From: Lachnospiraceae bacterium
GTDB taxonomy: Bacteria; Bacillota; Clostridia; Lachnospirales; Lachnospiraceae
Reading direction: 5' to 3'
Assembly: GCA_021201095.1 (NCBI GenBank)
Contig: JAJQFO010000255.1
Coordinates: 1-38,185, forward strand
Length of the DNA: 38,185 nt
Numbering within the stretch: position 1 is the stretch's first letter; every line of letters starts with the position of its first letter. The notes under the pieces were generated by a model. That model saw nothing but the letters and a program-made list of their open reading frames with translations, did no database searches and was not told where the DNA came from. The translations under genes were made by a program, and so were the position numbers. Positions 3,874-24,315 of the stretch are shown here, piece after piece.

Positions 3874-4575
3874 ATGTCAGGCATCGCAAGTATGGAAACA
3901 GACTGCTGTGACTTTGCAGAATTCACGGGCAGGCCAGGCAGAAGGAGAGCAGCAAAAAAATATATGGAGCGGGTGTCAGAAATCAGAAAGCTCACGGGCG
4001 GCAGATATCTGGTGATTCTGGAGAACGGACGAAAATTTCCACTATACAGAAAAGAACTGAATGACTGCGGAATTGTTGAAGAAGCAGAGCTGTCGGAGAC
4101 GGTTCTGGAGAGGATCTTTCATGAGATCCTCCCGGGACGCGCCCGCCTTCGTGTTATGCATCTTCTGGAAAAAATGGACCGGACAGAGCTTCAGATTCGT
4201 GAAAAGCTGAGACAGTCCGGTTATCCGGAAGAAATTATTGATGATGCTGTTGATTACGTAAAGAATTATCATTATATCGATGACCTGCGATATGCACAAA
4301 ATTACCTGGAAACACACGCAGCAGCCAAAAGCCTTCGGCAGATGGAACAGGATTTGTATGAAAAGGGGATTTCCAAAGATCTTGTGATGCAGGCCGTATC
4401 AGAGATAGAAGTTCCGGATGAGGAAGCTCAGATCCGCGAACTGCTGAAGAAAAAGAATTACACTCCCGGACAGAATGATCGAAAAATGCAGCAGAAAATC
4501 TATGCCTTCCTGATGCGCCGGGGTTACGAGGCTTCCGCAATTTCTCGTGCAATGAAGCTGGAGGAATGGCAGTAG
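3874..4575 (+). CDS. recX: Regulatory protein RecX
   Basis: Modulator of RecA filaments. The three-helix RecX repeats are recognisable: RARLRVMHLLEKMDRTELQI, then LRQSGYPEEIIDDAVDYVK, then YIDDLRYAQNYL, and C-terminally MRRGYEASAISRAM. The position right after recA supports the call. Start choice is uncertain: ATG 3874 gives 233 residues but lacks a Shine-Dalgarno, while ATG 3964 (M-E-R-V-S-E) gives 203 residues and has AGGAG at 3943-3947, about 16 nt upstream. The first 30 residues of the longer form show no family similarity I recognise, so the true start may be internal. Confidence 0.9.
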   Translation: MSGIASMETDCCDFAEFTGRPGRRRAAKKYMERVSEIRKLTGGRYLVILENGRKFPLYRKELNDCGIVEEAELSETVLERIFHEILPGRARLRVMHLLEKMDRTELQIREKLRQSGYPEEIIDDAVDYVKNYHYIDDLRYAQNYLETHAAAKSLRQMEQDLYEKGISKDLVMQAVSEIEVPDEEAQIRELLKKKNYTPGQNDRKMQQKIYAFLMRRGYEASAISRAMKLEEWQ

Positions 4576-20815: not shown

Positions 20816-22099
20816 ATGAGCGATTACAGAATTGGCACGCGCTGCGTGCAGGGCGGCTACACACCGGGCAATGGGGAGCCGCGTCAGATCCCGATTGTGC
20901 AGTCTACGACATTTCGTTACGCGACCAGCGAGGATATGGGGAAGCTGTTTGACCTGGAGGCGAGCGGTTATTTTTATACGCGTCTGCAGAATCCGACCAA
21001 TGATCACGTGGCAGCGAAGATCACGGAGATGGAAGGCGGCACTGCCGGAATGCTGACCTCCTCCGGGCAGGCGGCAAACTTTTTCGCACTGTTTAACATC
21101 TGCGAGTGCGGCGACCATATTGTTTCTTCTTCCTCCATCTACGGAGGGACGTTTAATCTGATTTCCGTGACGATGGCCAAGATGGGGATTACGGCGACCT
21201 TTGTCAGCCCGGACGCAAGTGAGGAGGAGCTGAACGCGGCCTTTCAGCCGAATACAAAGGCGGTTTTTGGAGAGACCATCGCAAATCCGGCACTGACGGT
21301 GCTGGATATTGAAAAATTTGCAAAAGTGGCTCATGAGCATGGCGTGCCGCTGATTGTGGATAACACCTTCCCGACGCCGGTCAACTGTCGTCCGTTCGAG
21401 TGGGGAGCGGATATTGTCACACATTCGACGACAAAATACATGGACGGCCACGGAGCGGCTGTGGGCGGAGCGATTATCGATCATGGTGTCTTTGACTGGA
21501 TGGCTCACGCGGAGAAATTTCCCGGACTGTGTACACCGGATGAGAGCTACCACGGCATTACCTATGCGGAAAAGTTTGGCAAAGAAGGCGCGTTTATCAC
21601 CAAATGCACCTCTCAGCTGATGCGCGACTTCGGCTCCATACAGTCTCCGCAGAACGCATTCCTGCTGAATCTTGGACTGGAATCCCTGCATGTGCGTATG
21701 CCGAAGCACGTGGAAAACGGACAGGCTGTCGCGGAATTCCTCTATAATCACCCGAAGGTGGCGTATGTGAATTATTCCGGGCTTCCGACCGACAAATATT
21801 ATGAGATTGCACAGAAATATCTGCCGAACGGCGGCTGCGGCATCGTCTCCTTCGGCCTGAAGGGCGGCAGGGAGGCAGCATCGATCTTTATGCGCGAGCT
21901 GAAGCTGGGGGCGATCGAGACCCATGTGGCGGACGCGCGGACCTGCTGTCTGAATCCGGCGACCTCCACTCACCGCCAGATGAATGATGAGCAGCTGGCC
22001 GAGGCAGGTGTACCGGCAGAGCTGATCCGCATCAGCCTGGGGCTGGAGGACAAGGAGGATCTGATCGCGGATATCGCGAATGCATTAGATGCGATCTGA
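20816..22099 (+). CDS. metY: O-acetylhomoserine sulfhydrylase (Cys/Met metabolism PLP enzyme)
   Basis: PLP enzyme that makes homocysteine from O-acetylhomoserine and sulfide in direct methionine biosynthesis. Fold-type I gamma-family motifs: YTRLQNPTND, SSGQAANF, GGTFNL, VDNTFPTP, and HSTTKYMDGHG with Lys207 as the Schiff-base lysine; the late LNPATSTHRQM segment is also typical. 427 residues and the internal insertion after the PLP lysine (EKFPGLCTPDESYHG) fit the MetY group better than cystathionine gamma-synthase (about 380). GAGAGG precedes the ATG. A related C-S lyase lies at 25483. No SAM riboswitch or T-box is recognisable upstream. Confidence 0.93.
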   Translation: MSDYRIGTRCVQGGYTPGNGEPRQIPIVQSTTFRYATSEDMGKLFDLEASGYFYTRLQNPTNDHVAAKITEMEGGTAGMLTSSGQAANFFALFNICECGDHIVSSSSIYGGTFNLISVTMAKMGITATFVSPDASEEELNAAFQPNTKAVFGETIANPALTVLDIEKFAKVAHEHGVPLIVDNTFPTPVNCRPFEWGADIVTHSTTKYMDGHGAAVGGAIIDHGVFDWMAHAEKFPGLCTPDESYHGITYAEKFGKEGAFITKCTSQLMRDFGSIQSPQNAFLLNLGLESLHVRMPKHVENGQAVAEFLYNHPKVAYVNYSGLPTDKYYEIAQKYLPNGGCGIVSFGLKGGREAASIFMRELKLGAIETHVADARTCCLNPATSTHRQMNDEQLAEAGVPAELIRISLGLEDKEDLIADIANALDAI

Positions 22100-22139
22100 T
22101 ACCCCCCCTTAAGTGAACGGTTTTGAGATATGGTAGAAT

Positions 22140-22173
22140 AAGTGTCGGTCTTTTGGCTGGCACTTCTTTTTTT
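22140..22173 (+). terminator. Terminator of the sulfhydrylase gene
   Basis: AAGTGTCGG (22140-22148) pairs with CTGGCACTT (22157-22165) using two wobble pairs, followed by seven T residues. Confidence 0.75.
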
Positions 22174-22207
22174 CATGTCAAAAAATCTCTGGAGAGAGTG
22201 TTATTTT

Positions 22208-22227
22208 TGTACTTTGAAAACTGAATA
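22208..22227 (+). promoter_or_regulatory. rRNA-like boxA sequence in the pcfJ-like leader
   Basis: TTTGAAAACTGAAT within this site matches the boxA/spacer sequence found ahead of 23S rRNA in Firmicutes, where NusB-NusE assemble for antitermination. Here no rRNA gene follows; it stands about 200 bp before a long protein gene. The role is inferred from resemblance. Confidence 0.5.
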
Positions 22228-22334
22228 AGGAAAGAGAAACGATCACAACAGGAAAAGTGTAAGATAATGATTGTCAATATGCAAAACCAAGCTATGCATC
22301 CTAAAACGTTGCAGGACACATAACATCACAAGCG

Positions 22335-22408
22335 ATATGGAACCTGAAGTGGAGAGCCGCGCATGCAAAATCACGCTGAGGCGTGATGGCGAGGCCTGCG
22401 TTCCATGT
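22335..22408 (+). ncRNA. Candidate structured leader RNA of the pcfJ-like gene
   Basis: A 9-bp closing helix (ATATGGAAC at 22335-22343 with GTTCCATGT at 22400-22408, one wobble) encloses a 7-bp hairpin ATCACGC-TGAG-GCGTGAT (22370-22387) extended by GCC/GGC. The helix ends two bases before the AAGGAGG Shine-Dalgarno region. I recognise no known riboswitch class. It could control translation of the downstream gene. Confidence 0.45.
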
Positions 22409-22425
22409 AAAGGAGGATCGTGGAT

Positions 22426-24315
22426 ATGGATATTGTAAATAAACATCATCATATGTTTCTCAAAAAAGGGCTGGGTCTTTATTGCTCCAAGTGCGGAAAA
22501 GCCGTCATGCCGGATGAATACAGCAGGAAGCTTCATGCGTCTGCCTGCAAATTTGACGGGAGTGAAGATATTACTGCGATTATTCAGGAGGGCGCCTATT
22601 ATGCGTATTCCTTTCGGTTGGAGGATGGAAAACTGGTCTTTCTTGTTTCGAAGCTGATGCTGAGACCCCGGAACGGGGCTGAGGATCAGTTTCGCGGGAG
22701 CATCTGGAAGGAAATCTTTCGCGCTTCCTTTTCCAAAAACAGCCATGAAATTGAGGAGGAAGGTCTTTACAATGTAGATGTCTGGATGAAAAAGTTTATC
22801 GAACAGCATCACATGGCCTGTCTGCAGCCGGAGCGGGGAATTCGGGTCATTCATCAATATTTTCCGGAAATTATGTATGTGCAGAGCTTTGGGATGTTTC
22901 TGGATACCTACCGCCAGAGGGGATATTCCCGGAAGGAATATGATGTCCGCCGGGAGCTGGAAGCGCCGCTGGATGAAACCGTGTGCGAGATTATCCGTGA
23001 GAGCAGGGATGTCAATATTTTAGCGGTTACTGAATTTGAAAAAGAAGGAGAACTGTTTCTGGTGATGGATCTGGGATGGCTGCCTGCAAGGATTATTATT
23101 ACAAAGGATTTCCTGGTATCACGGGAGTCATACCTGGATCTCTCTTTTTTGGAGGGACCGGAAAAAAGCTTGTATGGCGGTCTTAAGGAGGACGGCAAAA
23201 AACTGGAGATTCTGGAATATCCATATGGCGGAATTCTGGAACGTTTTGCGGAAAAATATCCGTCTTTTATGCTTTCAGAATATGAAAAAGGCGGCGGGGA
23301 AAATCCTCTGGTACCGATGCTTTCTCCGATGTATAGTCATGCTCTGGAGCTTTTATCAAAAGCAGGCCTTGGCAAAATCTGCGGTTTCTATCGTTTATTA
23401 AAGGATCAGACCTGGTTTCATGCCCAGGAAACAGATATCCGCAGGATGCTGGGATTGCCGGTGAAGGTTTTAAAACGTCTCCAGTATCAGTCAGGGGAGG
23501 AATTTGTCCGTATGCTGCCCAGATATGCGGAGATTTATGCGAAAAAGCCGCAGTTTCTGCAGATGGAACAGTTTACCGCTGCTTATAATGATATGCTGCG
23601 ATACAACGATGTCTGTCACGACGGAAAAGGATATACCTGGCAGGGAATCAATGGCGTCGCGAAATGGTCTGATCAGGAAATCCTGCGGACACTCCGGTAT
23701 CTTTCCGGATTTTCCGGATCGGGAGCTTATGTTACGTACAGAGACTATCTGCAGATGTGCCGGCGAATTCAAAACTATCCGGACGGACGATTTCCGAAGA
23801 ATCTGAGGGTGGCACATGATCATGTGCTTCAGTTATACCAAATCCAGGAGGATGAATATCGAAACAGACAATTCATGGCGGCTGTGGCAAAAGAAGAATA
23901 CGCGCAGCTTGCCACGGATTCAGAAGAAAAATCAGAGGAGCCCTATGAGGTGCTTACACCTTCTGGTATGTGGGATCTGGTGAAAGAGTCGGAGAAGCTG
24001 CATCATTGTGTCCGTATGTACACGGAAGTGGTAACACAGGGGAGAACTTACATCTTGTTTTTGCGCCGAAGGGAAGAGCATGACAGACCATTTGCCACAA
24101 TGGAGGTCCTTCCGTCCAGGGCTGCGTCCAGCAGAAACGGCGGGAGCACGAAACCGACCCTTATTCAGCTCAAAGCCGTCAATAATACGAAGGCACCGGC
24201 GGATGCACAGAGGTTTGTCTGCCGATGGGCCAGTGAAAAAGGGGTGCGGATTGATACCAGGGACATAGACGCGAGGATTGTGGGCGGCTGCGAAGCCGCC
24301 CATCCGGCTGCGTAG
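22426..24315 (+). CDS. PcfJ-like protein
   Basis: A 629-residue protein of the PcfJ-like family, named after a gene of the conjugative plasmid pCF10 but widespread in Clostridia; the biochemical role is not known to me. The C-terminal family region carries LWDLVKESEKLHHCVRMY-type sequence with His526-His527-Cys528, followed by FLRRREEHDRPFATMEV and QLKAVNNTKAP. The N-terminus has C20-x2-C23...H37-x3-C41, a possible zinc site. ATG 22426 lies nine bases after AGGAGG; GTG at 22420 is too close. The last codons (IVGGCEAAHPAA) are encoded by a GC hairpin, GGGCGGCT-GCGA-AGCCGCCC. No conjugation genes are nearby. Confidence 0.8.
   Translation: MDIVNKHHHMFLKKGLGLYCSKCGKAVMPDEYSRKLHASACKFDGSEDITAIIQEGAYYAYSFRLEDGKLVFLVSKLMLRPRNGAEDQFRGSIWKEIFRASFSKNSHEIEEEGLYNVDVWMKKFIEQHHMACLQPERGIRVIHQYFPEIMYVQSFGMFLDTYRQRGYSRKEYDVRRELEAPLDETVCEIIRESRDVNILAVTEFEKEGELFLVMDLGWLPARIIITKDFLVSRESYLDLSFLEGPEKSLYGGLKEDGKKLEILEYPYGGILERFAEKYPSFMLSEYEKGGGENPLVPMLSPMYSHALELLSKAGLGKICGFYRLLKDQTWFHAQETDIRRMLGLPVKVLKRLQYQSGEEFVRMLPRYAEIYAKKPQFLQMEQFTAAYNDMLRYNDVCHDGKGYTWQGINGVAKWSDQEILRTLRYLSGFSGSGAYVTYRDYLQMCRRIQNYPDGRFPKNLRVAHDHVLQLYQIQEDEYRNRQFMAAVAKEEYAQLATDSEEKSEEPYEVLTPSGMWDLVKESEKLHHCVRMYTEVVTQGRTYILFLRRREEHDRPFATMEVLPSRAASSRNGGSTKPTLIQLKAVNNTKAPADAQRFVCRWASEKGVRIDTRDIDARIVGGCEAAHPAA

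Follow-up and report, generated by a model that had tools for sequence, protein, structure and literature searches.

An rRNA-type boxA in the untranslated leaders of a PcfJ-like gene family of Lachnospiraceae

BoxA is a short RNA signal whose usual role is to protect the transcription of ribosomal RNA. A boxA of the kind found in ribosomal RNA operons, lying upstream of a protein-coding gene, raises the question of what it does there. Control of protein genes by boxA has been documented in gamma-proteobacteria, and we found no report of it for Clostridia in the part of the literature that was searched. The locus described here lies in a stretch of 38,185 nucleotides from a Lachnospiraceae bacterium (GenBank assembly GCA_021201095.1, contig JAJQFO010000255.1), referred to as the window. 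The original prediction for this locus was a boxA followed by a structured RNA in the leader of a pcfJ-like gene. The relevant features are as follows.

22206–22227, + strand: boxA, rRNA-type, TTTGTACTTTGAAAACTGAATA; identical to the boxA in the internal transcribed spacer (ITS) of L183 and kept in 5/5 family leaders
22228–22409, + strand: untranslated leader from boxA to the Shine-Dalgarno sequence; first half A-rich, second half GC-rich
22410–22416, + strand: Shine-Dalgarno sequence AAGGAGG, 9 nt before the ATG at 22426; AAGGAGGATC in L002 and L003
22426–24315, + strand: PcfJ-like gene, 629 amino acids, function not assigned; zinc-ribbon-like N-terminus, PcfJ domain at the C-terminus

The 629-residue protein matches the Pfam family PcfJ (PF14284) with E = 7.5e-19 over residues 437–564, in agreement with the predicted pcfJ-like identity. 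The residues of its N-terminal zinc-ribbon-like CxxC...H...C motif are invariant in the five proteins of the family. An AlphaFold2 model had a mean pLDDT of 48 and was too poor for a fold search. The full-length family comprises five loci in three genomes of a single genus: the window gene, a 95% identical protein in L002 (G042:C71), an ortholog of ~70% identity in L003 (G038:C166), and a second paralog group, L012 (G000:C104) and L011 (G042:C88), with 45–46% identity to the window protein. A scan of ~85,000 species genomes yielded no further full-length members, and no relatives were found in viral contigs. Plasmid, phage and distant chromosomal matches covered the PcfJ (C-terminal) half only, none of them being full-length. 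With its full-length relatives confined to three genomes of one genus, the gene was fairly described as a long orphan. Its surroundings are those of an ordinary chromosome, with genes for Lon, a ribosome-type GTPase, a Cys/Met-metabolism enzyme, DUF3737, an aminotransferase, and a diol dehydratase with its reactivase. At the paralog locus in G042:C88 a Cas13a gene (NF038188, E = 3.7e-166; L058:7261-11526) lies directly downstream of the PcfJ-like gene, and the same locus holds a CRISPR array (L172:6882-7585) with ten or more repeats and a period of ~73. Cas13a and CRISPR are absent beside the PcfJ-like paralog of the window's own genome.

TTTGAAAACTGAAT occurs exactly at 22213–22226 of the + strand, 213 nt upstream of ATG 22426. 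Within the 38-kb window this is the sole match with 0–1 mismatches, against a chance expectation of 0.0008. Of the three sites that the pattern TGANAACTGNATA has in the whole 4.8-Mb source genome, two fall in the leaders of the two family members encoded there; random placement would give this with a chance of ~1.6e-8, a rough figure for a pattern that was picked after the leaders had been seen. The loose pattern TTTGANAACTGNATA, counted genome-wide, was modestly more frequent than its control, with many matches in or near coding sequence.

In this small sample (five loci, three genomes, one genus) all five leaders carry the box in sense orientation, 177–236 nt before the ATG. It reads gTACTTTGAAAACTGAATAAGGAAAG in the window, gTACTTTGAAAACTGAATAAAGAAAG in L002, gCACTATGAAAACTGAATATCGAAAA in L003, gCACCATGACAACTGAATATCGATAG in L012 and gCACCATGACAACTGAATATAGATAT in L011. 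The 13-mer TGAAAACTGAATA is matched with 0–1 mismatches in the five leaders, a score equalled in 0, 0, 0, 0 and 3 of 2000 dinucleotide-preserving shuffles per leader. Reversed-motif and antisense controls gave 4–5 mismatches, and no antisense boxA copies were found in the five leaders. The box is kept between paralogs that are 45% identical in protein and whose leaders are otherwise hardly alignable. The longest common substring between leaders was uninformative, being dominated by poly-C and chance 9-mers. In the L011 leader an imperfect repeat of the box follows after 30-odd nt. No boxA was found in the upstream regions of 11 distant PcfJ-domain genes, and the box therefore follows the subfamily and not the PcfJ domain.

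A conserved stretch of this kind might also be a short upstream reading frame, as ATGAMAACTGAATATMGA reads M-K/T-T-E-Y-R in three leaders and an ATG is in register in L003, L011 and L012. In the window and in L002, however, the frame reads TTG-AAA-ACT-GAA-TAA and stops after four codons. A well-spaced Shine-Dalgarno sequence precedes it in no leader, and the nucleotide match to the rRNA boxA is far stronger than the conservation of the peptide. On these grounds we rejected the upstream reading frame, which we consider highly improbable.

Over all 22 nt, positions 22206–22227 match without a difference the boxA that precedes the 23S gene in the 16S-23S spacer of L183, a member of the same order (spacer sequence aatTTGTACTTTGAAAACTGAATAgaaaac). 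The 17-nt CTTTGAAAACTGAATAA is the 16S-leader boxA in L028, and the paralog boxes CGCACCATGACAACTGAATA (the version of L011 and L012) are close to the ITS boxA TGCACCTTGAAAACTGAATA of L185 and L197. Most of the 16S leaders compared from other genomes of the order contain C[T/A/C]TTGAAAACTgAAtA-like boxes 98–203 nt before the 16S gene. Only part of the 23S gene is assembled from the rRNA operon of the source genome itself, and the rRNA boxA sequences used here come from other genomes of the order. The element shares 17–22 identical nucleotides with individual rRNA members, in the same strand sense and at a similar distance from the gene, the closest matches lying 98–203 nt before 16S. The family boxes differ from rRNA boxes in preceding a protein gene with a Shine-Dalgarno sequence and, in 3/5 copies, in departing within the CUUU segment of the NusB/S10 site. 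This segment is intact in the window and in L002 and has 1–2 changes in L003, L011 and L012, so that the latter three copies could be weak. Judged by its sequence, the element upstream of the PcfJ-like gene is a true copy of the Lachnospirales rRNA boxA, and the predicted boxA match is borne out by the exact TTTGAAAACTGAAT, its rRNA counterparts in the order and its retention in 5/5 relatives. In G080 (L133, L136) the rRNA boxA looks different (CTTAACAATTT-like), and several leaders with pemK RNA (see below) in this genome still contain TTTGA[A/C]AACTGAATA.

The 22-nt identity with an rRNA spacer would also be expected if the box were a relic or a captured piece of such a spacer without function in the gene. 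Against this, the 45% identical paralogs with their hardly alignable leaders retain the box in the sense direction and about as far from the gene. Other rRNA-derived sequence was not seen, and the window gave no Rfam match to rRNA. We therefore regard a functionless relic as unlikely.

The second element of the original prediction was a compact fold that ends next to the Shine-Dalgarno sequence. It spans 22335–22408 and consists of a closing helix (arms 22335–22343 and 22400–22408, 9 pairs including one G-U) and an inner hairpin (22370–22376 with 22381–22387, 7 pairs, TGAG loop). The complementary arms are indeed present, and the outer arm of the closing helix ends 1 nt before AAGGAGG. The predicted minimum-energy structure, however, contains the inner hairpin and lacks the 9-bp closing helix. 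The L002 leader keeps 9/9 closing pairs and 6/7 inner pairs, but its outer arm is interrupted by 22 inserted nucleotides. In L003 only 3/9 closing pairs are kept and the inner hairpin is deleted, and the leaders of L011 and L012 form hairpins unrelated to the predicted fold. Conservation of the helices thus ends with the 95% identical allele, and the structured leader RNA fails the test that was proposed along with it.

These data also bear on the idea that the leader is a new structured, riboswitch-like cis-regulatory RNA in which boxA is incidental. A hand-picked stretch of 84 nt is more stable than its shuffles (z = -2.6), but the whole leader is not (z = 0.04), and the loss of the helices in L003 and the different hairpins in L011 and L012 speak against it as well. 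At the gathering score, Rfam returned no leader RNA for the window and only tRNAs elsewhere in it; a search of the leader up to E = 10 gave only chance matches below the gathering score. Neither the window at gathering score nor the leader up to E = 10 matched pemK RNA (RF02913). The earlier statement that no named RNA class fits agrees with this result. Downstream of boxA, the hairpins that precede the Shine-Dalgarno sequence vary from member to member, a shared RNA class is not supported, and a new structured RNA seems to us very unlikely.

Two further elements were found upstream of the box.

22102–22139, + strand: promoter-like element; C7-TTA at 22102–22111, 22 nt, TAGAAT at 22134–22139; extended form TGGTAGAAT
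22140–22173, + strand: hairpin resembling an intrinsic terminator; 11 bp at 22140–22165 with a TTTT loop, followed by T7

The promoter-like pattern, C6-8 TTW followed after ~22 nt by TAKAAT, lies upstream of the box in 5/5 loci at near-constant spacing, with the variants TAGAGT in L002 and TAAGAT in L011. Ten matches to it were found in the three whole genomes, five of them being the family loci. The pattern read backwards as a control gave 18 matches, and the element is therefore meaningful by its position and not by genome-wide enrichment. We infer that it may act as a promoter. The C tract is 7, 6, 8, 6 and 8 nt long at the five loci. Its length (window 22102–22108; also L002, L003, L011 and L012) differs even between the 95% identical alleles, and a homopolymeric C tract at a presumed promoter could be a slippage-prone switch.

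In the terminator-like hairpin 11/11 pairs are formed in the window, L002 and L003, as counted by eye, in contrast to the fold near the Shine-Dalgarno sequence; several pairs differ in L003, two of them on both sides. MAFFT misaligned L003 in this region. The hairpin probably ends the upstream Cys/Met-metabolism gene (20816–22099). Alternatively, it may belong to the leader, as a hairpin at the 5' end or as an attenuator. In L012 the promoter-like element is likewise followed by a hairpin of this kind; the upstream gene is divergent there, and the hairpin therefore belongs to the leader. In the window, L002 and L003 the stem begins immediately after TAKAAT, so that any start point assigned to the transcript is tentative.

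Based on these elements we propose, with moderate confidence, that boxA recruits NusB-S10 and thereby allows antitermination across the untranslated leader of the PcfJ-like gene. The transcript would start upstream of the box, at or near the conserved C-tract/TAKAAT promoter. Once transcribed, the nascent boxA would bind NusB-NusE(S10), which together with NusA and NusG would stay on RNA polymerase and make it resistant to Rho and to pausing. The modified polymerase could then cross the ~200 nt of untranslated leader. Expression of the PcfJ-like gene would in this way be coupled to the pool of rRNA-antitermination factors that are free. The host genome encodes NusB (L200, a 146-aa frame, PF01029 with E = 1.8e-29) and Rho (L201). 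Beyond the sequence itself, its conservation and the genes present, the model is inferred: where transcription starts, binding of NusB/S10, antitermination, and any advantage to the gene. In the window leader, the + strand showed no intrinsic terminator between the box and the gene. If antitermination is right, its opponent is therefore probably Rho; the same result counts against antitermination, as the window leader offers no intrinsic terminator downstream of the box to be overcome. For an experimental approach, boxA provides short and exact mutation targets, e.g. CTTTGAAAAC.

Precedents for boxA in protein-gene leaders are E. coli suhB and C. koseri CKO_00699, which encodes a ParE-like toxin (PMC5725501). 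These best-studied elements, where tested, repress and do not antiterminate, which is another point against antitermination. The main rival reading is accordingly that boxA represses the gene: bound Nus factors would lower translation, and Rho would then terminate transcription inside the gene. Besides the experimental precedent in E. coli and Citrobacter koseri, repression is compatible with the presence of both Rho and NusB in the host. What the family has in common with suhB and CKO_00699 is a boxA of the rRNA type in a protein-gene leader. Those boxes, however, follow the gamma-proteobacterial consensus GYTCTTTAANA, which uses the 5' CUUU part, and the published survey sought boxes at most 50 bp from the start codon, whereas the family boxes at 177–236 nt all lie beyond this limit. 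Regulation from further than 50 bp is possible, so that distance is not decisive against repression (PMC5725501). By analogy with these cases, repression may apply here, but we consider it clearly less likely than antitermination. A parallel to the proposed antitermination, cited in PMC12691694, is the rrn complex acting as antiterminator on CRISPR arrays. The rRNA antitermination machinery is likewise used there outside rRNA on a long untranslated RNA; it acts there on a non-coding array and would act here on an mRNA leader.

Many of the order-wide intergenic boxA matches lie upstream of leaders with pemK RNA (RF02913). In a dedicated search of 30 pemK RNA loci (L139–L168), boxA was found in 20/30 with 0–2 mismatches, 125–262 nt upstream, as compared with 1/30 for the reversed motif and 0/30 for the antisense control. 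The distribution is two-peaked, the remaining 10/30 having at least 4 mismatches to boxA. The Tn916-type element of pCF10 (NC_006827.2; L202:1499-1764) contains an exact boxA, TTGTTCTTTGAAAACTGAATAAAAG, ~160 nt before the pemK RNA, in a leader ahead of the excisionase and integrase (xis-int) genes. The window leader resembles the pemK RNA leaders of these mobile elements in carrying an rRNA-type boxA; it differs from them in lacking a pemK RNA and in its ordinary chromosomal surroundings. A partial literature search found no paper that links boxA to pemK RNA or to Tn916.

We tentatively suggest, as a reading somewhat less likely than not, that in Bacillota an rRNA-type boxA is an overlooked but general feature in the leaders of accessory and mobile genes. 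Placed 150–250 nt ahead of protein operons (Tn916-type xis-int, other pemK-RNA leaders and the PcfJ-like family), it might borrow the host's rRNA antitermination complex for long or untranslated regions and tie them to ribosome synthesis. If so, accessory genes in Bacillota would use the rRNA antitermination machinery, and how Tn916-type elements sustain long transcripts would become testable by point mutation.

Several minor observations concern boxA-like sequences at other loci. Near 4551 on the minus strand of L090, an exact boxA likewise precedes a pemK RNA by ~160 nt in a Tn916-type xis-int leader. Among the pemK RNA loci L139–L168, the sequence between the box and the pemK RNA also looks conserved, with GGTACGTT, GCCATGACC and GCGAGCG. 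A boxA near 1501 in L023 (G075) is located directly upstream of a gene resembling RNase Y by eye, just ahead of the Shine-Dalgarno region. Near 1500 on the minus strand of L112 (G042:C97:6749), GCACCATGAAAACTGAATATATCGC, nearly the box of the paralogs, precedes a short terminated intergenic RNA. Several copies of an intergenic repeat that includes TGACAACTGAATATCGT(A/G)C occur in L098, L105, L114 and L119 (G007, G046). Inverted boxA-like copies, (G/T)TGTACC(C/T)TGACAACTGAATAAAATACACA, were observed in L094:1016 and L100 (G038:C92:1016 and 2919), where they sit near both ends of an apparent insertion sequence with a transposase-like gene.
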